In this document: one piece after another, positions 20,814 through 34,439 of the stretch
Position numbering within the stretch: position 1 is the stretch's first letter
Layout: every line of letters starts with the position of its first letter
Assembly (NCBI GenBank): GCA_027490145.1
Contig: JAIXYQ010000006.1
Span: 1 to 64,000, forward strand
From: Planctomycetaceae bacterium
GTDB taxonomy: Bacteria > Planctomycetota > Phycisphaerae > Phycisphaerales > SM1A02
Reading direction: 5' to 3'
DNA length: 64,000 nt
Translations under genes and position numbers: made by a program
Notes under the pieces: model-generated
Databases searched by the model: none
Told to the model about the DNA's origin: nothing
The model's input: the letters and a program-made list of their open reading frames with translations, nothing else

Positions 20814-22529
20814 ATGATGCTGCCCACCTGCTCACGTCTGCTCCTGCTCGCTGCGCTGCTCTGCTCCTCGCCCGCCCTCGCTGCCGCGGACTCGAACCTT
20901 GAGTTCGACGGCGGGATCCAGGGCTGGCAGACCGTCCTCGACGGCGTCATGGGTGGGCTGTCCACCGGTCGCATCGAGGCCGGTGATGGCGGGACGATGC
21001 GGTTCTCCGGTGAACTCTCGCTCGAAAACAACGGCGGCTTCTCGCAGGTCCGCACCTCCGTGCCCGAGGGAACCTTTGCCGGAGCGAGCGGGCTCGTGCT
21101 GCGCGTGAGGGGTGACGGCCGGACCTACCAGTGCGACATCCGCTCCTCGCGCCTGCGCTTGATGGCTGGCGGGTACCAGCGCGTGTTCGCGACCACAGCC
21201 GGAGAGTGGATCGACGTCGAGATCGCCTTCGGTGAGTGCGTGGCCAACAGCTTCGGGCAGCGGGTGCGCAATGCCCCCCCGCTCGATCCTGCGTCGATCG
21301 AATCGGTGGGGATCACGCTCTCCGACAAGAAGGAAGGTCCGTTTGCGATCGAGGTCGACTGGATCCGCCCGGCCGGACAGGCGTCCACCTCACCTGCATC
21401 GGCCGGTTCACTGGCCGCGGTGGCCACCAAGGCCAACCTGACCACGCTGCTTGCCCTGGTCAAGGCTTCGGGCATCGAACTTCCGGCGAATGCCAAGCTC
21501 ACGATCTTCGCACCCACCAACGAGGCGTTCGCGAAGCTTCCCAAGGATCAGGTCGAGTTCCTGACCAGCGCCAAAGGCAAGCCCACCCTGCAGGCGATCC
21601 TCAAGCACCATGTGGTCGGATCCTCGGTGGGCAGCTCGTCGGTCCTGGACCGCCGACGCCTCAGTGCGCTCTCGGGGCAATCGCTCGAGGTCGATCCGAC
21701 CTCGCTCACGATCGACGGTGCGCGCCTGGTGGCGACGGACGTGGCCTTCGACGGCGGCCTCGTGCACGTGATCGATGCGGTCATGGTGCCTGAACTGCGG
21801 AGCATCGAGGCCATCATCGCCGAGGACGAACGGTTCTCCACGCTGCGTGCGGCGATCGATGCCGCCGGGATCGGTCCGCAACTGGGGGCGCGCAACCCCG
21901 GTCCCTGGACGCTGCTGGCCCCGTCCAACCAGGCCTTCGGTGCGATCCCCGCCGAGGACCTCAAGGCCCTGCTTGCCGATCGTGCCGCGCTGACCGCGGT
22001 GCTCGGGGCACACGTCGTGCCCACCGCGATCCGGCGCGAGGAGATGCTGGCGCAGGGCTCGGCGCGCACGCTCCTGGGCGATGGCAGCGTGGCCTTCGCG
22101 CTCGACGCCGGTGTGATCACGGCGGGCGGCGCTCGCATCGAGGTCGCCGACATCGAGGCCGCCAACGGCATCATCCACATCATCGACCGTGTGCTCCCCG
22201 CGGCCAGTGCGACCAGCGCGGCGGAGGCTGCCATGATGCCCTCGCGCATCCGGAGCGCTGCCGCCATCCTCGAGCTGGCGATCGAGCGCGGGGTGCCGCG
22301 GTTCAATGCGGGCGACCAGGCATCGTGCGCGGCGCTGTATGAGTTGGCGATCATGTCCGTGGTGCTGCTCGGGAACGATGCCATCGGTGAGCGGGCATCG
22401 TCGGCACTCTCGGCTGCCCTGAAGGACGGGGCCACGCACGAGGATGCGGCGCAACGGGCGTGGACCTACCGACGCGGGATGGACAGTGCGCTGCAGAGCA
22501 TGGCTGCCGCCATGCAGCCTCGGGAGTGA
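20814..22529 (+). CDS. Secreted CIA30 plus fasciclin-domain fusion protein
   Basis: The 571-residue protein has a signal peptide (residues about 1-25). A CIA30 (NDUFAF1-like) domain follows, with WQTVLDGVMGGLSTG near the N-terminus and NNGGFSQVR after it. Two fasciclin (FAS1) domains come next, around residues 200-330 and 335-460, with TIFAPTNEAFAKLP, LVHVIDAVMVP, TLLAPSNQAFGAIP and IIHIIDRVLP. A helical C-terminal region of about 100 residues ends the protein. CIA30-type domains bind sugars or partner proteins and FAS1 domains mediate adhesion, so a surface or periplasmic adhesion role is likely by inference. A small hairpin (GATGCGG/CCGCATC) covers the stop codon. Confidence 0.88.
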   Translation: MMLPTCSRLLLLAALLCSSPALAAADSNLEFDGGIQGWQTVLDGVMGGLSTGRIEAGDGGTMRFSGELSLENNGGFSQVRTSVPEGTFAGASGLVLRVRGDGRTYQCDIRSSRLRLMAGGYQRVFATTAGEWIDVEIAFGECVANSFGQRVRNAPPLDPASIESVGITLSDKKEGPFAIEVDWIRPAGQASTSPASAGSLAAVATKANLTTLLALVKASGIELPANAKLTIFAPTNEAFAKLPKDQVEFLTSAKGKPTLQAILKHHVVGSSVGSSSVLDRRRLSALSGQSLEVDPTSLTIDGARLVATDVAFDGGLVHVIDAVMVPELRSIEAIIAEDERFSTLRAAIDAAGIGPQLGARNPGPWTLLAPSNQAFGAIPAEDLKALLADRAALTAVLGAHVVPTAIRREEMLAQGSARTLLGDGSVAFALDAGVITAGGARIEVADIEAANGIIHIIDRVLPAASATSAAEAAMMPSRIRSAAAILELAIERGVPRFNAGDQASCAALYELAIMSVVLLGNDAIGERASSALSAALKDGATHEDAAQRAWTYRRGMDSALQSMAAAMQPRE

Positions 22530-22717
22530 TGCGGGTGAACCGCATCGCACGGAGTCGTTGGGTTGCGGCGATTGCTCGGTGTGCTCAAGTTGATCGGATT
22601 GACCACGTTGTTCGTGAATCCTTCATCCGAGGCGTCGCGCACCGTGATCATGCAGCTCCCTCGATTCACGATCCGGCGCGGTGACCAGCCGCTGGCGGGC
22701 GCCTAGGGTTGTGTCCC

Positions 22718-24058
22718 ATGCCCGGCAGCCTTGCACCGCCCTGCCTCGTCTGGCACCGAACGGACCTGCGAGTCCATGATCACGCCGCCGTGACGGCCGC
22801 AGCAGCGGCATCGCGAGGACACGTCATCGGGGTCCTGTGCATCCCGGAGGATGCCTTCGGTTCCGTCGAGTTGGCGCGTGGCCTGTGCTTGCCGCGCGCG
22901 AGCGAGTGCCGCGTGGGTCATTGGCTCCAGGCGATCGATGGCCTGCGGGCGGATTGGCGATCGATCGGCTCGGCGCTCTGTGTGCTGCGCGGCGAGCCGG
23001 AGCAGGTCATCCCGAAGCTCGTCGCCGACCTGGGCGCCATCGAGGTCCACACCGCGCCGTGCCCGGCGCACGATGAACTCATGCAGAACCGACGGGTGGC
23101 CCGGGCCCTTGCGGATCGGGGTACGCGCCTGGTCACGCACGACGAAACCACCATGATCGCGGCAGCGGACCTGCCGTTTCCCATCGAGGAGCTCCCCGAG
23201 GTCTTCTCGAACTTCCGTCGCCTGGTGGAGCGGTCGTGCAAGACGCCGGAGCCCGTCCCTGCGCTGACCAGTCTGGATGTGCCTGCGTCCACGCGCGAAT
23301 GGAGCGAAGCCACGTCAGATGCCACGCTGTCGGGCGCGGACCTTCGCCGGGCGCGGATCGCCGCGCTGCAGCGCGACCCTCGCGCTCCATCGACCGCGCG
23401 TGGCGAGCGCGCTGCCGGGCTTGAGCGCATGCAGCAGTGGATCTGGCAGGACGACTGCCTTGCGCGGTACAAGGAGACCCGTGATGGCTTGCTGGGTGCT
23501 GACTTCTCGTCGCGCCTGTCGACCTGGCTCGCCACGGGCACGATCTCGCCGCGGGAGGTCGCCGCACAGATCCGCCGGTACGAGCGCGAGCGCGTGGCCA
23601 ACGACTCGACCTACTGGCTCTGGTTCGAGCTGTTGTGGCGTGACTACTTCCACCTGTGGGTCCGACGCTGGCAGTCGCGGGCGTTCGCGGCCAGCGGCAT
23701 GATGGGGCGCACGCCCTGCGGCAGGCAGGATGTCGACGCGTTCGAACGCTGGCGTTCGGGCACCACCGGCGAGCCGTTCGTGGATGCCTGCATGCACGAA
23801 TTGGCCGCAACCGGCTGGCTCTCGAATCGCGGTCGGCAGAACGCCGCGAGTTGGCTGGCGAAGACGGCGGGCGTCGATTGGCGCTGGGGCGCTTGGTGGT
23901 TCGAAAGCCAACTTCTGGATCACGACGTGGGCCCCAACTGGGGCAACTGGCAATATGTGGCCGGCGTCGGCAACGATCCCCGCAACCGCACCTTCAATGT
24001 GCGTGCCCAGGCCGAGCGCTACGACACCGACGGTGCATACCGGCGCACATGGGGCTGA
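22718..24058 (+). CDS. DASH-type cryptochrome / deoxyribodipyrimidine photolyase
   Basis: This 446-residue flavoprotein is of the photolyase/cryptochrome family. It has the N-terminal alpha/beta antenna domain starting with VWHRTDLRVHDH, the FPIEELPEVFSNFRR linker and the helical FAD domain. The C-terminal signature NRGRQNAASWLAKT, followed by DHDVGPNWGNWQY and GVGNDPRNRTFNV, is typical of DASH proteins. DASH proteins repair cyclobutane dimers, at least in single-stranded DNA. The ATG at 22718 is preferred over a TTG three codons upstream. The upstream 188 bases show no gene. Its placement near the fasciclin and rhodopsin genes fits a light-exposed lifestyle. Confidence 0.92.
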   Translation: MPGSLAPPCLVWHRTDLRVHDHAAVTAAAAASRGHVIGVLCIPEDAFGSVELARGLCLPRASECRVGHWLQAIDGLRADWRSIGSALCVLRGEPEQVIPKLVADLGAIEVHTAPCPAHDELMQNRRVARALADRGTRLVTHDETTMIAAADLPFPIEELPEVFSNFRRLVERSCKTPEPVPALTSLDVPASTREWSEATSDATLSGADLRRARIAALQRDPRAPSTARGERAAGLERMQQWIWQDDCLARYKETRDGLLGADFSSRLSTWLATGTISPREVAAQIRRYERERVANDSTYWLWFELLWRDYFHLWVRRWQSRAFAASGMMGRTPCGRQDVDAFERWRSGTTGEPFVDACMHELAATGWLSNRGRQNAASWLAKTAGVDWRWGAWWFESQLLDHDVGPNWGNWQYVAGVGNDPRNRTFNVRAQAERYDTDGAYRRTWG

Positions 24059-24177: not shown

Positions 24178-27006
24178 TCACGGCTCCACGCGCGGCACGC
24201 CATTGCGCTCGTGGCGGTACTTCGAGATCGCCTCGTAGGCCACCTTGCGTGCGCGGTTGATGCCCCCGAGCGGCCGCTGCACCTCGAGGGCATGCCACGG
24301 GGTGAACGAGAGGTTCTCGGCGATCCTCAAATCCTCGCCCGACGAAAGGTCCTGCTTGGGGATGCGCAGCATCGCCACACGCACGAACGGCGACTCCGAC
24401 TCCATCCACTCGACCAGCGCATCCTCCACGGGCATCGTCACGGGATCCTTCTGCAGCTGGACCAGGAACTCGAAGACCACCTCGTCGGCACCGATCTGCG
24501 TCACCATCGCCTGCCGCAGGTAGTCGGGACTCTTCCGGATCGCAGCCGGCTTCACCGGGGCAACGACCGGCCTGGCGGAGAACTTCATCGCGCCCGCACC
24601 GAGCCGATAGGGCGTCTGGCTCCAGTAGCGTGACTGCAGCGGGTTCCAGAACGACGCACCGTTGAGCCCCTCGATGGCGCGGAGCACCGGCGGGTTCATC
24701 TTCAGGAGGACCTCGGTCTGGGCAAGCCCGCCAATGCGAGCGGCGTGGAACGCCTCGTAGTCGGCCACGTTCCTCGAGAGGAACGTCGGGTAGTTGATCA
24801 TCACGAAGTCCTGCGTGGTGGCATCGCGCTCGTCCTCGAGGGCCTTGGGGCCCTCGACGCCCAGCACCTTGATCGCCATGCCGTGCGCCTGCTGCACGGT
24901 GTCGGCCGAGATCTCGGTGCCGCTCGCCGAGAAGCGGACCATGGCGTCGTACGACTTCGGCGTCGCGAAGAGGCCGTGACGGAACTCCGCAGGCAGCCCG
25001 TCGAGCACCTCGAAGCGGGCCTTCACCATGCCGTGGGTCTTCGGATGCGCGTCGCGCCGAACCTCCGAACCCTCGGGGTACTGGATGCGCATGCGGGCCA
25101 TGGTCTGGTCGACGAATCGCTGGATCAGTTCGCCCTCACCGGGCAGCACGCGCTCTGCGCCCAGCGCCATCGGCGGTGCAGGCACGGGATAGCTGGTGGG
25201 CTGCGCGTTGTTGAAGAAGTGCACATCGCTCCAGGCCTCGACGGGATCCTTGGGCCCGCCGTAGGGCGTGACCTGCCCGGCCTCGGTCGGGATCGACTTC
25301 AGGAACTCCACGAGATCCCAGCGCTCCTGCTCGCTCAGCAGACGACCGATCACGCCCGCGCCGAGCGGGCCGTTCTCGAAGGAGTGCCCGGCGTTGGAGT
25401 TGCCGATGCGCGTGGTGTCGAATTCGAAGCGCCCCGAGTTCCCGCTGGTGTCGACACCGACCTTGACCGGGTCGAAGTCGCGGCCGACCAAGAACGTCTT
25501 GGGGCGCTCCTTGGCCGGCGTCAACAGGTCGTAGAGGCTCGGTACCGAACCATTGTGGAGGAACGGCGCCGTGGCCCACACGCCATCGCGCGGACCGGCC
25601 TTGTACGAGGCCTGCGTGGGCGGCTTCTCCCAGTCGTAGCGGTAGCCGTGCGCATCCACGAGCTCCGCAGGCGTCAGCCCCGCGGACGAGAGGGCACGTT
25701 CCAGGACGCCCTTGCGGGCGGTGGACAGCACGGCCAGCGACGGCGCGAGCTCGGCGCCCTTGAACGGCGGCGACATCCAGGATGCCATGTTGCCCGTCAG
25801 GTACTCCGGCTGGCGGTTGAAGCCCGGGGTCTTGAACTGCTGCGGGTCGGTGCCGACATACACGTCCGGCACGAGGGCGTTCTCGATGAACCGCTTGCCG
25901 TCGACCTTGGGCACGCTCCATCGATGCGGGTAGGTGCTGTGGCAGGCGGAGCAGTGCTCCATGAACAAGGCTCGGCCGCGCGCCGCCTTGGCACGATCGA
26001 TCGGACCGAACACCTCCTCGGGCCACTTGGGCGGCGCCAGGCGACGGAGCAACTCCTCGATCTTCAGCTGCCCGCGGACATCGACCGTCGACTCGAAGAG
26101 CCCCTGCTCGGGCGACGGCGACCGAAGGTCCATGCGCGTGAACACCCCCATCGATTCGGTGGCATTTCGGTAGAACGGATCGCTGGCGGTGCCGGACCAC
26201 TGGACCCATGCCGATTGCGGTGCGTTCCAGAGGAACGGGGGCTTGGCCGGTGCGAGCGCGGCCTCCCAGTTTTCCGGCACGCCGAGTGCACCATCCACCA
26301 CGCGCGTGTGGATGAGCGTCAGCGCGTCCATGCGGCCGGGACCGCTGGGGGTGGCCATCGCGGCATCACGCGAGATGTAGGTGTGGACCACCTGGGCAGC
26401 CTCGTCGAGTTGTGCGCGCAGCTCCGCGCGGGCGCCGTCACCGTTGGCCTTCATCCGCGTCGCCACGCGGTCGAACTTGGCGGGATCACGCTGCGTGGCG
26501 GCCAGAGCCTGATCCAGCGCACTGATGTAGCCGGCGAAGTCGAACGCATGGTTCGAACCGCCCTCGATGCGGATCTTCTGGCCCTTGTAGCTCAACTCCG
26601 AGCAGTGGCAGGTCGAGCACGACAGACCGATCCAATCCCCCTTCCATCGTCCGGCGGGAACCGAGGTCTTCACGAGCCCGATGGGCAGCCCATCGGGGTT
26701 GGTGCGCGGATCGGCGGGCTCGGTCAGCAGGCCGAATCGGTCGGACACCGAGTCAGCACGGAAGGGCTCGGTGCCTTCCGCCTGTTCCAGGGCCAGGAAG
26801 AGCTGGTACGGCATCACCGCCGAACCCTGCGAGCTGCGGTGATAGGCGGCACGATCCTCGGCGCTCCAGCCCTGATCGAGCAGCACGGGCGGCTTCGGGG
26901 CTTGGGCCTTCGTGAACCCGGCCATGGACCCGATCAGGATGATGGTGGCGATCCCCGTGCAGGCCATGACGGTTCCACCGACGCGTGCGCTGTGCTGCTG
27001 TGGCAT
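24178..27006 (-). CDS. Two-heme cytochrome c fused to a catalase-fold domain
   Basis: The 942-residue protein starts with a membrane or signal segment (residues about 13-33). The N-terminal two thirds look like a diheme cytochrome c of the RoxA / cytochrome c peroxidase-like group, with heme motifs CSTCH (130-134) and CSACH (352-356) and a GVWATAPFLHNGSVPSLYD pattern typical of that group. The C-terminal third (about residues 630-940) resembles the heme-binding catalase fold, with HGMVKARFEV, VRFSASGT and a SRYWSQTPYRLG segment. The arrangement suggests an extracytoplasmic oxidoreductase handling peroxides or oxygenating an organic substrate. The start at 27006 gives the membrane segment. The gene is divergent from the sialidase-like gene. 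Confidence 0.87.
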   Translation of the reverse strand: MPQQHSARVGGTVMACTGIATIILIGSMAGFTKAQAPKPPVLLDQGWSAEDRAAYHRSSQGSAVMPYQLFLALEQAEGTEPFRADSVSDRFGLLTEPADPRTNPDGLPIGLVKTSVPAGRWKGDWIGLSCSTCHCSELSYKGQKIRIEGGSNHAFDFAGYISALDQALAATQRDPAKFDRVATRMKANGDGARAELRAQLDEAAQVVHTYISRDAAMATPSGPGRMDALTLIHTRVVDGALGVPENWEAALAPAKPPFLWNAPQSAWVQWSGTASDPFYRNATESMGVFTRMDLRSPSPEQGLFESTVDVRGQLKIEELLRRLAPPKWPEEVFGPIDRAKAARGRALFMEHCSACHSTYPHRWSVPKVDGKRFIENALVPDVYVGTDPQQFKTPGFNRQPEYLTGNMASWMSPPFKGAELAPSLAVLSTARKGVLERALSSAGLTPAELVDAHGYRYDWEKPPTQASYKAGPRDGVWATAPFLHNGSVPSLYDLLTPAKERPKTFLVGRDFDPVKVGVDTSGNSGRFEFDTTRIGNSNAGHSFENGPLGAGVIGRLLSEQERWDLVEFLKSIPTEAGQVTPYGGPKDPVEAWSDVHFFNNAQPTSYPVPAPPMALGAERVLPGEGELIQRFVDQTMARMRIQYPEGSEVRRDAHPKTHGMVKARFEVLDGLPAEFRHGLFATPKSYDAMVRFSASGTEISADTVQQAHGMAIKVLGVEGPKALEDERDATTQDFVMINYPTFLSRNVADYEAFHAARIGGLAQTEVLLKMNPPVLRAIEGLNGASFWNPLQSRYWSQTPYRLGAGAMKFSARPVVAPVKPAAIRKSPDYLRQAMVTQIGADEVVFEFLVQLQKDPVTMPVEDALVEWMESESPFVRVAMLRIPKQDLSSGEDLRIAENLSFTPWHALEVQRPLGGINRARKVAYEAISKYRHERNGVPRVEP

Positions 27007-27064
27007 CTCACAAGCGTAACAGTCTGCACCGGGTAGGTTCTCCAGTCCCAGGAGCCGTCGCGCC

Positions 27065-28009
27065 ATGCACACCATTGCCCTTTCGATCATCACACTCGTC
27101 TCGGCGGCAGGGATCGCGCTCCAGACCGCCACGCCCCCGGCACCCGGTACACCGGCAGCGGCGCCCGGGCCGTGGGACAACGAGCTGGTCGTGCAGCGCG
27201 TGACGGCTGACGGCACGGCGTCGACCATCGCCACGTTCGGCCGCGCGGATGTCTCCAGCATCGCGCGCCTGCAGGACGGTCGACTGGCGATCGCGTGTCA
27301 GGCCTTCCCCAAGGATGACCGCGCACACTTCAACCGCATCGCCGTGCGGTTCTCCAGCGACGATGGTCGCACCTGGGGCGAACCGAAGCCGATCGTGGTG
27401 GCGAACATGGATGTCGCGCTCGCGCCGCCCTTCGATCCCGCACTCGTCGTGCTGCCCGACGGCCGCGTGCGCCTGTACTTCATCACGCATACCGGCACCG
27501 ACGCGGCGCCCGGCCAGACCGCGGTCCACTCGGCCACGTCGACCGATGCCACGCACTACGACTACGAGCCGGGCGTGCGCTTCACGGTGCCGGGTCGCGT
27601 GGTGGTCGACTGCGCGGCGGCGCTGCACGAGGGTGTGTTCCACCTCGTGGTGCCGGACAACGGGACGCCCGCCGAGTTCCTCGAGCGGCGACGCCGCGGT
27701 GAACCGCAGCCGGGCGGCAACGGCTACCACGCCACCAGCACCGACGGCCTCGCGTTCACGCGTGCGGCCGACCTGCCGCTGCCCTCGACGCGCGACCGCT
27801 GGTTCGGCAACCTGCTGAGCGACGGCACGCAGCTCCTCTTCTTCGGGTCCGGCCCCGGACCATGGCCGATGACGAGTGCGGACGGGAAGCGCTGGGCACC
27901 CGCCGTGACGTCCATGCGCATGCCCGGCGTGGATCCCTGCGCGGTCCGGCTGCGTGATGACTCGTGGTTGGTCGTCGCGACCCGCGAGCCCGCGCGCGGC
28001 AAGCCCTGA
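27065..28009 (+). CDS. Secreted sialidase-like beta-propeller protein
   Basis: The 314-residue protein has an N-terminal signal peptide with a hydrophobic core and AXA-type residues. A five-bladed beta-propeller pattern follows, including the Asp-box-like VRFSSDDGRTWG, ALHEGVFHLVVPDNG and GYHATSTDGLAFTRAADL. These are seen in exo-alpha-sialidase-like and glycosidase family 33/43-like proteins. Catalytic residues of a true sialidase cannot be confirmed. It is divergent from the cytochrome-catalase gene and ends 10 bases before the convergent cupin gene. Confidence 0.8.
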   Translation: MHTIALSIITLVSAAGIALQTATPPAPGTPAAAPGPWDNELVVQRVTADGTASTIATFGRADVSSIARLQDGRLAIACQAFPKDDRAHFNRIAVRFSSDDGRTWGEPKPIVVANMDVALAPPFDPALVVLPDGRVRLYFITHTGTDAAPGQTAVHSATSTDATHYDYEPGVRFTVPGRVVVDCAAALHEGVFHLVVPDNGTPAEFLERRRRGEPQPGGNGYHATSTDGLAFTRAADLPLPSTRDRWFGNLLSDGTQLLFFGSGPGPWPMTSADGKRWAPAVTSMRMPGVDPCAVRLRDDSWLVVATREPARGKP

Positions 28010-28708: not shown

Positions 28709-29671
28709 TCAATACTTCGCGTTGCCTTTGGGCTGGTCTCCCGCGGCAGCCGCTGCCGGGGGAAGGAGCACTGCGTCCAGGACATGGATCACACCGTTGC
28801 TGGACTCCACATCGACGGCGACCACGTTGGCGCCACCGAGCATCACCTTGTCCCCAACAACCTTCACGCCGATGGGCTTGCCGAGAAGGGTCGGAACCTC
28901 CTTCATCTTGACCACCGAGTCGCTGTACGCCGTCACATTGGGCACGACGTGGTACGAGAGGATCTCGACGAGCTGCTTCTTGTTCTCCGGCTTCAGCAGC
29001 ATCTCCAGCGTACCCGCGGGAAGTTTCGCGAAGGCTTCATCAGTCGGAGCGAGAATCGTGAATGGTCCCTTGCCCGCGAGGGTCTCTGCCAAGCCGGCAG
29101 CCTGGACCGCGGCGACCAGCGTCTTGAACGAGCCGTTCTTCACGGCAACGTCGACGACCGTGCCGTCGACCGGCAGCATCACACTGTCGATCACGTGGAT
29201 GACGCCGTTGGAGCACCCGATGTCGGTCGCGCTCACCAGTGCACCGTCCACCATCACCTTCGGGCCTTCGACCTTGATGCCGACGCGCTGGCCGTTGACG
29301 GTTCCCAAGTGCTTCACCTTGACCACGTCAGCCGCCTTCACTGAGCCGGGGACAACGTGGTAGGTCAGGATGGCCGCAAGCTTCGCCTTGTTCTCCGGCT
29401 TCAGCAGGGTGTCAACGGTGCCCGCCGGCAACTTGGCAAAGGCTTCGTCGGTCGGAGCGAACACAGTGAATGGACCGGCGCCGCTCAGCGTCTCGGCCAG
29501 GCCCGCCGCCTGGACCGCAGCAACGAGCGTCTTGAAGTTGCCCACGGCAACGGCGGTGTCGACGATGGTCGCCTGCTTGGACACTGCCGGAGCTTGAGTG
29601 GCGACGGGCGAGGCCTGCGATCCCAGGGATGACACGGCGAGCACGAACGAAGTCGCGAAGACATTCAGCAT
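28709..29671 (-). CDS. Secreted protein with two fasciclin (FAS1) domains
   Basis: The 320-residue protein has a signal peptide (about 20-25 residues), then two FAS1 domains (about residues 36-165 and 170-300). Each carries the family core: [19 protein letters not shown] and [12 protein letters not shown] in the first, [19 protein letters not shown] and [12 protein letters not shown] in the second. The two domains are highly alike ([17 protein letters not shown] in both), pointing to recent duplication. FAS1 proteins mediate cell adhesion or matrix contact. The ATG has AGAGG in a good position upstream. It is divergent from the rhodopsin gene and shares a 480-base control region with it. Confidence 0.93.
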
Positions 29672-30151: not shown

Positions 30152-30943
30152 ATGACGTTGCTCATCGCGGACATGTCAACCACCATGCGTGCCCTCAACG
30201 CGGGCCTTTCGATGGAGGGGGTCACCATGTACCTCTTCTGGCTCTCCACCGTGGCCATGGGCGCAGGCGCTCTCTACTTCTGGCTGCAGCGCAAGACCGT
30301 GCCGATGCAGTACCAGACCGCGATGACCGTGGCAGGCATCATCTGTGCGGTCGCCGCCTTCCACTACTGGCGAATGAGCGGCATCTACCTCGAGGGCGTT
30401 GCAGGCCTGTTCAACGCCGACGGAACCCGCATCGAGGGAGCGACCATCAAGCAGTTCCCGACCGCCTACCGGTACATCGATTGGCTGATCACGGTTCCGC
30501 TGCTCGTGATGGAGTTCCCCCTGCTCCTGAACCTCGGAAAGAAGGGAAGCGAACTCTTCAAGGGTCTCGTCTTCTGGTCATTCGTGATGTTGGTGACCGC
30601 TTGGGTTGCGGAAGAAAGCGCCACCGGCAGCCAGCAGTGGTGGACCTGGTACGTGGTCAGCTGCGGCGCGTGGCTCTACATCGTGTACATGCTGTTCACC
30701 AAGGTCTCGGAGTCCATGTCGGAAGCGCCTGCGAGCATCCAGAGCAGCCTGAAGACCATGCGGCTCTTCGTGACGATCGGCTGGGTCATCTATCCGATCG
30801 GCTTCCTGATGGCCCTCAACGGAGCCAACGGCGAGAGCTGGCGTGAGATTTGCTACAACGTCGCGGACGTCGTCAACAAGGTGTTCTTCGGTCTGGTGTG
30901 CTACCAGGGCGTGAAGGCCCTGAGTGACGGTCAACGCGCCTGA
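30152..30943 (+). CDS. Proteorhodopsin-type light-driven proton pump
   Basis: The 263-residue protein has seven hydrophobic helices. All proteorhodopsin pump residues are present: H71 in AAFHYWRM, the arginine-aspartate motif YRYIDWLITVPLLVMEF with D110 (Schiff-base counter-ion), T114 and E121 (proton donor), D239, and the retinal lysine K243 in NVADVVNKVFFG. The position that tunes colour in proteorhodopsin (after VPL) is leucine (L118), predicting green absorption. It pumps protons out in light, giving energy to the cell. The ATG at 30152 has a strong GGAGA ribosome site 7 bases upstream. The retinal-forming dioxygenase gene follows, separated by an intrinsic terminator, and a fasciclin gene is divergent. 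Confidence 0.95.
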   Translation: MTLLIADMSTTMRALNAGLSMEGVTMYLFWLSTVAMGAGALYFWLQRKTVPMQYQTAMTVAGIICAVAAFHYWRMSGIYLEGVAGLFNADGTRIEGATIKQFPTAYRYIDWLITVPLLVMEFPLLLNLGKKGSELFKGLVFWSFVMLVTAWVAEESATGSQQWWTWYVVSCGAWLYIVYMLFTKVSESMSEAPASIQSSLKTMRLFVTIGWVIYPIGFLMALNGANGESWREICYNVADVVNKVFFGLVCYQGVKALSDGQRA

Positions 30944-30965
30944 CGCGACCTCTCAGGCGTGATCT

Positions 30966-31040
30966 CCCTCCCGCCCACCGCCCCGAATCCGGCTCGCCTC
31001 GAAGGCGACCGGCTTCCTGGGGCGGAGGCGGGAGGGTTTT
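30966..31040 (+). terminator. Strong intrinsic terminator between rhodopsin and blh
   Basis: CCCTCCCGCC and CCGCCCC on the left arm (30966-30984) pair with GGGGCGG and GGCGGGAGGG on the right arm (31019-31036), with a small internal mismatch. A TTTT tract follows. A smaller hairpin (TCGCC/GGCGA) sits in the loop. It lies 23 bases past the rhodopsin stop and just before blh. Confidence 0.88.
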
Positions 31041-31048
31041 CGTTGTGG

Positions 31049-32014
31049 ATGCCGCGAGCGGTGCCATGGGCTGCGCTCCTGGGCGGCATCATGCTCGCAA
31101 CCCTTGTGCCCGGGTCCACGACGGAATCCGCGCCTTGGCCATTCCTCATTGCGCTCGTCCTCTTTGGCATGCCGCATGGAGCGGCGGACTGGTCGGTCGC
31201 GGCACGGCTCGCGGGCCGAACGGGATTCGCCAGTCGAGTGGCCGGATTCCGGTGGTACCTCGCCATGATGGTCGGCTGCACGGCGTTGCTCGCGTGGCAG
31301 CCGGGGATCGTCACGCTCGCCTTCCTGCTGCTGACCGTATTCCACTTCGGCATGGCTGACGCCACTGCGGTGGGAGCAGATGACGATGGACCGCTCGCAC
31401 GCTGGTGCCTCGTGTGTAGCCGCGGCCTGCTGCTGCTCGCGACGGCATTCGCCTGCAATGCCGTGGCGGCCTGGGCACCCTTCGCTGAGATCGCTGCTGC
31501 GACGCCGTGGGCGAATGCGGCATGGATGCCTGATCTGGATGCGCTCCGGTCGGGTGCGCTGCTTGGCGTGGCGGCCGGCGCCGTGCTTGCGGTGTGCGGC
31601 GCGATGGCACGGTTCCGCCGTGCAAGACGTCTCGAGGCGGTGCTTGACCTGGCGGAGCACGGGCTCGTCACGACCATGGCCGCACTCACGGATCCCCTCT
31701 TTGCAGTCGGCTGCTTTTTTCTCGGGGTCCACGCGGTCCGTCACACCTGTCGACTCGCCAACACGCGCGTGGTGATGGAACCGCCACCTGCGCCGGCAGG
31801 AACACTTGCGCGGATCATGCGTGTCCATGCACTCAGCATGCCGCTCATGGTGCCGACCGCGCTTTGCCTCTGGCCACTGTGCTTGATGCTCGGCGGCTTC
31901 GGGGCACGCCAAGTCGCCGTCGCGACCATAGCCTTCTACATGATCTCCACCCTGCCCCATCACCTGCTCGGGCTTCGCTTGCCACGGCCTAGCCGAGGCT
32001 TCCTCGTGCAGTGA
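31049..32014 (+). CDS. blh: Brp/Blh-type beta-carotene 15,15'-dioxygenase
   Basis: The 321-residue integral membrane protein has many hydrophobic helices. It cleaves beta-carotene to two retinal molecules, the chromophore of the neighbouring rhodopsin. Family metal-site histidines are present in MPHGAADW (H43), FHFGMAD (H99), GVHAVRH (H228, H232) and TLPHHLLG near the C-terminus. The ATG at 31049 was chosen because a GTG upstream at 30959 lies in the left arm of the terminator hairpin, and the residues between are not family-like. Transcription would come by read-through past the terminator or from a promoter inside it. Confidence 0.92.
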   Translation: MPRAVPWAALLGGIMLATLVPGSTTESAPWPFLIALVLFGMPHGAADWSVAARLAGRTGFASRVAGFRWYLAMMVGCTALLAWQPGIVTLAFLLLTVFHFGMADATAVGADDDGPLARWCLVCSRGLLLLATAFACNAVAAWAPFAEIAAATPWANAAWMPDLDALRSGALLGVAAGAVLAVCGAMARFRRARRLEAVLDLAEHGLVTTMAALTDPLFAVGCFFLGVHAVRHTCRLANTRVVMEPPPAPAGTLARIMRVHALSMPLMVPTALCLWPLCLMLGGFGARQVAVATIAFYMISTLPHHLLGLRLPRPSRGFLVQ

Positions 32015-32249: not shown

Positions 32250-33410
32250 ATGCAACGCACCACATCCGCTGTGCCATGCCGGCCATCTCCCCTGGATCTT
32301 CAGCCGCCGAGCTTCGAGCACCTGACCGAAGCCCCCTCGATCTCGACGCTGCTCAAGAGAACCGTCGAACTGAGCCTGGCGGCGGGCATGCGGTTTCCGC
32401 ACACGCTGTTCCTCGGCCCCCCCGACAGCGGCAAGCAGGTCATGGCAGCCACCATCGCCGCGGAGATGGGCGTCAACCTGGCCAGGATCAACGCCAGCAC
32501 GATCCGCGACGCCAAGGAACTGCATCAACTCCTGCGCGAGGTGCCCGATGGCGCCGTGGTGTTGGTTTCCCAGATCGATCGATCCGACTGGATCAAGTAC
32601 CAGCTCTGCCGCATCGTCGCCGGTCTTCCGGTCGCCGAGCAGCGCGGCGAACCCCGGTTCGAGGTGCCCGGCGACGAATGGCGCTCTGCCGTCGACGGCC
32701 ACTCCTACCGGGACTTCTCCATCATCGCCACCAGCCGCGTCTTGCGTGCGGATCACAGCGCGTGGAACGAATGGGCCCAGATCACGGTGCGGACCGAGCG
32801 CACCGAACACACCGAGTCGGTCCGTCTGCAACGGGTCCTTGGCCGGCTCGGCGTCAAACCTGGGCCCGTGGCGTTGGCGCGGCTGGCGAACCATGCCGTC
32901 AAGAGCCAGACGCGCACGCTCATGCTGACTCGCAACATCATCGCCTTGACCGAGGCGAAGCAAGGCAGCACGCTGGAGCTCGCCGATGTGGAGCGCGCGC
33001 TGGCGCAGCTCGGCAAGGTCATGCTGACCGAAGCCGAGCGTGATCGGCTCGAAGCGGGCAAGTCGCTGCAGCGGCAGGAAGACATGAACGATCGTGGTCT
33101 CTTCGGGGATCTCGTCGGCTCCATCGACCGATCGATCGACATCACGCCCGAGGTGCGTGCCAAGCGGCGCAACAAGAAGATCCGCGAGACGGTCGAGACC
33201 TGCACGCTCGTGATCCTGGTGGGTGTCATGATGATCTTCCTGTCGAAGCTGTTGATCAACAGGTTCATCGACGCACCCAAGGGTGATCCCACGAGCCCGG
33301 CGGCCGTCGTACCGGCGGCTGAGCCGAAGGCGGCGGCGGTGCCGGATGCGCCTGGCACGACGTCGACCACGCCGATCGCGCCCGGCGCACCGGCGTCAGC
33401 GGTGCCCTGA
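32250..33410 (+). CDS. RuvB-like AAA+ domain protein with membrane anchor, degenerate ATPase site
   Basis: The 386-residue protein aligns by eye to the N-terminal AAA+ part of RuvB: GPPDSGK at residues 56-62, then AAEMGVNLARIN and a Walker B-like strand VVLVSQIDRS. In RuvB the Walker B is DEIHR, so the catalytic acidic pair is replaced by Ser-Gln, and the threonine after the P-loop lysine is replaced by Gln. ATP hydrolysis is therefore unlikely. A single hydrophobic span follows (TCTLVILVGVMMIFLSKLL), then an Ala/Pro-rich tail. No Holliday-junction C-terminal domain is evident. It probably binds a partner at the membrane. The ATG has GGAG upstream. It overlaps the HDAC gene by 15 bases at the 3' end. 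Confidence 0.75.
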   Translation: MQRTTSAVPCRPSPLDLQPPSFEHLTEAPSISTLLKRTVELSLAAGMRFPHTLFLGPPDSGKQVMAATIAAEMGVNLARINASTIRDAKELHQLLREVPDGAVVLVSQIDRSDWIKYQLCRIVAGLPVAEQRGEPRFEVPGDEWRSAVDGHSYRDFSIIATSRVLRADHSAWNEWAQITVRTERTEHTESVRLQRVLGRLGVKPGPVALARLANHAVKSQTRTLMLTRNIIALTEAKQGSTLELADVERALAQLGKVMLTEAERDRLEAGKSLQRQEDMNDRGLFGDLVGSIDRSIDITPEVRAKRRNKKIRETVETCTLVILVGVMMIFLSKLLINRFIDAPKGDPTSPAAVVPAAEPKAAAVPDAPGTTSTTPIAPGAPASAVP

Positions 33411-34322
33411 ACCCCCCATCGCTCCCGCAGCGACCCGCACCGCCTCGCGGAACACGCTCGCGTGCAGCTGCGCGGTCCGGTGGGGCGTCGCAGCGTAGCC
33501 GCCCGACAGCGTGATCGCGACGGGCAGCCCGGCGCCACGCAGCATCGTGAGCGCGATGCGGTCGCGCGCGGCGAGGCCGGCCTCGGTCAAGGCGAGCCGG
33601 CCAAAACGGTCCCCTGCCACCACATCCACGCCCGCCAGCAGGAACGCCAAGTCCGCGCGAGCCGCCTCGATCGCCCTCGGCAGGTGTGTCGCCAGGAGGC
33701 CGAGGTACGCATCGTCACCGGTGCCATCGTCCAGCGGGACATCCAGGGAGCCCGGCGGCTTGATGAGCGGGAAGTTGCGCGCGCCGTGCATGCTGAAGGT
33801 GAACACCCGCTCGTCGTCGGCGAAGAGGGCCGCGTTGGCGTTGCCATGATGCACGTCGAGGTCGACCACGAGCACGCGCATGGCCTCGCCGGTCGACTGC
33901 AGGTGCCGGACCGCGACACCGACGTCGTTGATCACGCAGTAGCCCTCGCCGCCCTCCCACAACGCATGGTGCGTGCCCCCGGCGAGGTTGCCGCCCACAC
34001 CATCCTCGAGCGCGAATCGGGCCGCGTTCAGCGTGCCTTGCGTGGCCAGACGGCTGCGGCGCACGAGCGCCGGGCTCCAGGGAAGCCCCAGCCGACGGAC
34101 CTGCTGGGGACTCAGCGTGCCGTCGCGCAAGGCGTCGAGGTACTCCCGCGCATGGGCGTGGGCCAGGAGCTCCCACCCGGCCTCGTGCGGGGCGACCACC
34201 TCGTGCGGCCGGACGACCCCCTGCGAGAGCAGGATCGCGTGCAGCTCGCTGAACTTGCGCATGGGGAACGCGTGCCCCGGCGGGAGCTCGACGACGTAGC
34301 CGGGGTGGTACGAAACGCGCAT
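33396..34322 (-). CDS. Histone deacetylase-like amidohydrolase
   Basis: The 308-residue protein belongs to the arginase/deacetylase fold family that includes HDACs, acetylpolyamine amidohydrolases and AcuC. Typical motifs are GGTHHA, DLDVHHGNANA (zinc-binding Asp and His), AGVDVVAGDRFG and TLSGGYA near the end. It removes acetyl groups from lysine, polyamine or acetoin-type substrates; the exact substrate is unknown. The ATG at 34322 gives the common MRVSYHPGY start; a longer start at 34415 is not family-like. It is convergent with the RuvB-like gene. Confidence 0.9.
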   Translation of the reverse strand: MRVSYHPGYVVELPPGHAFPMRKFSELHAILLSQGVVRPHEVVAPHEAGWELLAHAHAREYLDALRDGTLSPQQVRRLGLPWSPALVRRSRLATQGTLNAARFALEDGVGGNLAGGTHHALWEGGEGYCVINDVGVAVRHLQSTGEAMRVLVVDLDVHHGNANAALFADDERVFTFSMHGARNFPLIKPPGSLDVPLDDGTGDDAYLGLLATHLPRAIEAARADLAFLLAGVDVVAGDRFGRLALTEAGLAARDRIALTMLRGAGLPVAITLSGGYAATPHRTAQLHASVFREAVRVAAGAMGGSGHR

Positions 34323-34439
34323 ACGGCAACGGTAGGTGGTGAACGGATGCAGCGTGCGGGCCAACGAAAAACGCGAGGCCGCACTCATGGCCTCGCGCTC
34401 GGTTGGGCAGGTCACGCCGCGTCGTGCGCGGCGGGCGGA

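Follow-up and report, generated by a model that had tools for sequence, protein, structure and literature searches.

An opsin gene lies directly upstream of a gene for a retinal-forming dioxygenase (Blh) in the stretch of planctomycete DNA analysed here (the window: 64,000 nucleotides, bases 1-64000 of contig 16), and no route to beta-carotene, the substrate of such an enzyme, was recognised in the genome that carries them. The reading we favour, and hold to be probable though far from certain, is that of an ordinary green-light-driven proton pump whose retinal comes from Blh cutting scavenged beta-carotene, the cassette itself circulating horizontally. We infer pumping, colour, Blh activity and an outside carotene source from features read in the sequence, namely the opsin motifs, the family and putative ligands of Blh, the adjacency of the two genes, their transfer and the absence of the C40 genes tested. 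The pump is one more case of a known, widespread system; the useful part is a family-wide mismatch: the enzyme for the final step to retinal has been retained, yet the steps leading to its substrate were not found. If scavenging is true, the light energy gain of these lake bacteria would depend on the pigments of other organisms, and if it is false, an unknown ring-forming enzyme is still to be found. This mismatch was not reported in the literature searched, the coverage of which was incomplete.

The opsin and its partner gene

The opsin gene (30152..30943 on the + strand, from an ATG at 30152 to a stop at 30943) encodes a proteorhodopsin-type protein of 263 aa whose match to PF01036 (E 4.6e-43) spans residues 26-254. 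This match and the helix G Schiff-base lysine, K243, place it in the microbial rhodopsin fold. A sequence-only reading of this DNA had listed H71, D110, T114, E121, D239 and K243 as a full set of pump residues, with a green-type leucine at the tuning site, and a letter-by-letter check found each of them in place, the leucine as L118. The protein therefore has the DTE motif (Asp acceptor, Thr, carboxylate donor), its partner His and a tuning residue of the Leu/Met green kind. Across 62 relatives, H71, D110 and T114 are unchanged wherever the sites are covered, as are D239 and K243; the donor site (E121 in the window) reads Glu in 60 and Lys in 3, and the tuning site Leu (44) or Met (19), the methionine marking one clade that is marine for the most part. 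We predict from these residues a green-absorbing, outward proton pump of the proteorhodopsin type.

The closest PDB sequence is 4hyj (E 2.5e-51), which we take to be the Exiguobacterium sibiricum rhodopsin (the entry prints "Rhodopsin"), with green proteorhodopsins after it. Its acceptor Asp, Thr and retinal Lys are those of the window opsin, whereas its donor is Lys in place of Glu. Three rhodopsins of the same clade (L040, L068, L072) also have Lys for Glu at the donor site, like 4hyj. The green proteorhodopsin 8cqc shares the DTE motif and the tuning Leu with the window opsin, yet matches it at only E 2e-36 and sits on a separate branch of the tree. An opsin of the carotenoid-antenna (xanthorhodopsin) type was considered and rejected: the window has Tyr167, and all relatives have Tyr, Phe or Trp, at what the alignment suggests is the helix E fenestration site, which is Gly in antenna-binding rhodopsins, so no carotenoid antenna is expected.

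The blh gene (30959..32014, + strand, 351 aa) opens with a GTG 15 bases past the opsin stop, and the two genes are probably on the same transcript. The claim that this next gene encodes a carotene dioxygenase proved correct, since the product matches PF15461 (E 2.8e-28) and TIGR03753, the latter at 103.3 bits against a curated cut-off of 95.25, and four histidines (H73, H129, H258, H262) are kept in all relatives that cover them. These histidines are the putative metal ligands. The protein, a beta-carotene 15,15'-dioxygenase by family, is thus predicted to cleave beta-carotene to retinal.

Rhodopsins of this kind are spread through the host's family: of its 181 genomes 44 have a match, which exceeds the cut-off in 43, and the matches fall in 13 of 45 genera, with 6 of the 9 genomes of the host's own genus among them. 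The blh gene lies directly downstream in nearly all family loci with enough sequence, an adjacency seen for many carriers rather than confirmed genome by genome. Because the pair is adjacent, in the same order and conserved across dozens of genomes, chance is excluded as an explanation. That the genome is of planctomycete type, as the sequence-only reading had it, agrees with its genus mates, which are deposited mostly under Planctomycetota, and planctomycete-type DUF1501 and PSD1/PSCyt genes are among the neighbours in the window. The habitat appears to be fresh water, judging from the lake origin of most close relatives' records. A rhodopsin is no surprise in such a genome: about a quarter of the family's genomes carry one, and freshwater Planctomycetes rhodopsins were published in 2019 (Andrei et al., PMC6461901). 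The five rhodopsins of that study, one from Phycisphaerae and four from Planctomycetacia, resemble ours in that they come from the same phylum and a like habitat and are predicted to be green proton pumps; its main text contains no carotenoid or retinal analysis, unlike the present work. Five Verrucomicrobia loci (L042, L043, L045, L047, L049) also encode rhodopsins, which share about 65% identity with that of the window; no Blh was detected in their fetched flanks, some of which are short.

Carotenoid genes in the host and its relatives

The host genome (2.66 Mb, 94.4% complete) was examined by profile searches, family by family. Its only two SQS_PSY proteins, HpnC and an HpnD-like protein, are encoded side by side with HpnE. 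Since HpnC (255.7 bits, cut-off 250.45) and HpnE (409 bits, cut-off 283) pass their thresholds and the remaining protein scores best as HpnD, these genes point to the squalene route; the region (C7:340-343 kb) had been a candidate for crtB/crtI and was rejected as such, the genes being hpnCDE. No separate phytoene synthase (CrtB) was found among the SQS_PSY matches. A second cluster (C7:421-428 kb) encodes two crtI-family desaturases (crtI_fam 445 and 384 bits), an acyltransferase and a glycosyltransferase. It fits a C30 carotenoid route, and C30 carotenoids are probably made; a limnic planctomycete is known to form such carotenoids by the squalene route (PMC12078418). Searches of the host genome found no CrtYcd/CarR lycopene cyclase, and the sole PF05834 match (C8:18254), considered as CrtY, was rejected as a geranylgeranyl-reductase family protein. 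Of the components of a self-sufficient retinal-making system, CrtB is thus missing from the host genome, and a lycopene cyclase of the CrtY or CrtYcd/CarR family from both the host genome and 42 carriers.

Among these 42 family carriers a CrtYcd-type cyclase occurs in none, and PF05834 gave nothing above Rossmann level and no convincing lycopene cyclase: single matches score about 27 bits or less, one reaches 34.9 with its neighbours, and most cover the N-terminal Rossmann part. The absence is one of homology to the CrtY and CrtYcd/CarR families, and a new cyclase family would be invisible to it. SQS_PSY matches number two in most carriers, fewer in several and three in two (G123, G165), where the third was rejected as CrtB because hpnC/hpnD are split there, either by contig ends or inside a single frame. 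The freshwater carriers yielded no separate phytoene synthase. In two marine carriers (G159, G160) a lone synthase-family gene stands beside the rhodopsin gene and matches the squalene synthase model best, below its cut-off; in same-clade Verrucomicrobia the top-scoring synthase resembles HpnD and falls narrowly short of the cut-off. In three loci of the marine genus g41 (L061, L063, L125) rhodopsin-blh is flanked by two divergently oriented genes, one of the squalene/phytoene-synthase family and one for a crtI-like desaturase; the synthase passes the cut-off of no curated model.

The idea of a cyclase gene next to the cassette was also rejected, as a BLAST survey for neighbours shared with the window showed none. 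The only such shared neighbours were FAS1 genes, a photolyase gene in four loci and matches to the DUF1501 gene, these last in a few Verrucomicrobia loci and one planctomycete locus. By homology, the beta-ring route is unrecognisable in any carrier tested. The earlier statement that no carotenoid synthesis genes are visible is accordingly true of the window and extends to the whole genome for the C40 and beta-ring steps tested, while its description of the cluster as complete is not upheld, given that the beta-carotene route is missing genome-wide and lycopene cyclase is missing in 42 carriers.

Possible sources of retinal

In the reading we favour, the opsin would bind all-trans-retinal on Lys243, absorb green light and export protons, with D110 as proton acceptor, E121 as donor and H71 as partner; in a heterotroph, this export would supplement the proton-motive force. 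Blh would cut beta-carotene to retinal in a cell that would make squalene, and probably C30 carotenoids, instead of C40. Since neither a phytoene synthase nor a lycopene cyclase can be recognised in the cell, the beta-carotene would come from outside, most likely from organisms living on the same particles, be they algae, cyanobacteria or other bacteria. Against scavenging counts that no carotenoid uptake system was identified. The sequence-only reading had held that lack of a carotenoid route would tell against the pump; at genome level the route is indeed lacking, but this does not refute pumping, because beta-carotene or retinal may be obtained from outside.

The main rival to scavenging is an unrecognised cyclase: the cell may make its own beta-carotene through a CruA-type or new lycopene cyclase together with a desaturase/synthase pair that accepts C40 substrates. 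The two crtI_fam desaturases of the host would suit such a route, as would the synthase-family and desaturase genes beside the rhodopsin gene in two marine carriers, and there is a precedent in Aurantimicrobium minutum, which has endogenous retinal without known genes (PMC7734400). We nevertheless judge it unlikely on balance, given that freshwater carriers have no separate phytoene synthase, that the host's own synthases score best as HpnC and HpnD, and that the marine synthase is nearest to a squalene synthase model, below its cut-off. Retinal might instead arrive ready-made from neighbours, with Blh acting occasionally, persisting as a relict or using another carotenoid, and its uptake by rhodopsin-bearing bacteria is documented (PMC9296517, PMC12422013). 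However, Blh stands beside the opsin with its ligands intact in nearly all carriers, which argues for selection on Blh activity and makes this source distinctly unlikely.

The 94.4% completeness of the host genome leaves some 6% unassembled in which carotenoid genes may be hidden, but they are equally missing from 42 carriers, of which 26 have at least 90% completeness and at most 5% contamination; we rejected incompleteness as the cause since the pattern is the same across the 42 genomes, and regard it as very improbable. Equally hard to credit is that the opsin is a sensor or pumps another ion, as the DTE motif and His71 hold throughout the clade, 4hyj and green proteorhodopsins are its nearest relatives of known structure, and no transducer gene occurs among the opsin neighbours examined.

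Known systems offer partial parallels. Proteorhodopsin-blh operons with crt genes (PMC13043013) have the same pairing of opsin and brp/blh, whereas the window pair has no adjacent crtE, crtB, crtI or crtY and neither a lycopene cyclase nor a separate phytoene synthase could be found in its genome. Retinal auxotrophs, among them Rhodoluna/Aquiluna and Saccharibacteria (PMC12422013, PMC9296517), are likewise carriers unable to make retinal from scratch, but they are without blh; the present genome, with blh and without a beta-carotene route, is the reverse pattern. MAST protists are rhodopsin carriers inferred to obtain retinal or its precursor from their diet, and they differ in being eukaryotic phagotrophs with early crt genes present and blh rare (PMC8163842).

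Descent of the gene pair and its neighbourhood

Horizontal transfer, which the sequence-only reading had suggested, is borne out by trees of the rhodopsin and of Blh. The closest relative of the window opsin (L012) belongs to another genus (support 96/85), and the own-genus copies are scattered over several places and form no clade. Forcing the five own-genus rhodopsins together was rejected (p-AU 1.5e-114), and a constraint leaving out the outlying L034 was mildly rejected (p 0.028), these p values being indicative since the tree had been seen before the constraints were tested. Nested inside the planctomycete rhodopsin clade (97/96) are L030-L032, about 82% identical, which come from three MAGs with a Verrucomicrobia label in their deposits; a constraint that separates planctomycetes from Verrucomicrobia is rejected (p 0.0024). 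The Blh tree, built by a quick method with SH-aLRT support only, again places L030-L032 among planctomycete copies and groups L034 with L035 and L036, so the opsin-blh pair seems to travel together. Two of the three Verrucomicrobia loci (L031, L032) have long collinear flanks in common that are mostly unlike planctomycete loci, which argues against misbinned planctomycete contigs. The trees indicate that the pair is horizontally transferred, including across phyla in the case of L030-L032.

Two FAS1 (fasciclin) proteins are encoded within 10 kb of the opsin gene: a secreted-looking protein with two FAS1 domains (28709..29671, - strand; PF02469 E 8.7e-79) and a protein with a CIA30 and two FAS1 domains (20814..22529, + strand; PF08547, PF02469). 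A FAS1 gene lies within 7 kb of the rhodopsin gene in 9 of 62 other loci, all of the freshwater clade and in several orientations. With two to three FAS1 genes per genome, such proximity is expected in about 1-2%; a simple binomial estimate, taking 9 of 26 loci, gives 5e-11 but is overstated, as the loci are related and the set of 26 was chosen afterwards. FAS1 genes are also commoner in carriers (36/39) than in selected non-carriers (18/31; Fisher p 0.001, genus-stratified p 0.006).

In algal AstaP a FAS1 fold binds carotenoid, whereas a homologue of similar domain make-up from a cyanobacterium fails to do so (PMC10147662). The secreted-looking protein shares the FAS1 domain (PF02469) with AstaP-type proteins and matches AstaP 8c18 at E 1.1e-16, more weakly than adhesion-type FAS1 proteins, its nearest solved sequences. 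We speculate that the secreted neighbour could handle carotenoid. In an extended form of this idea, pumping in freshwater planctomycetes would depend on a scavenged precursor, blh being kept where the C40 beta-ring pathway was lost or never present, and secreted FAS1 proteins from genes next to the cassette would capture algal or cyanobacterial carotenoids and pass them to Blh, or, as a variant, an unknown lycopene cyclase would complete the pathway; we consider this rather unlikely. The clustering is accounted for just as well by a general island of light-exposure genes, because a gene for a DNA photolyase/cryptochrome family protein (22709..24058, + strand; PF00875, PF03441), itself of a light-exposure context, is also close by. 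Between the photolyase gene and the secreted FAS1 gene, the product of positions 24178-27261 (- strand) is large and contains a RoxA-like cytochrome c domain (PF21419), and downstream of the cassette lies a gene for a histone deacetylase superfamily protein (33396-34415, - strand).
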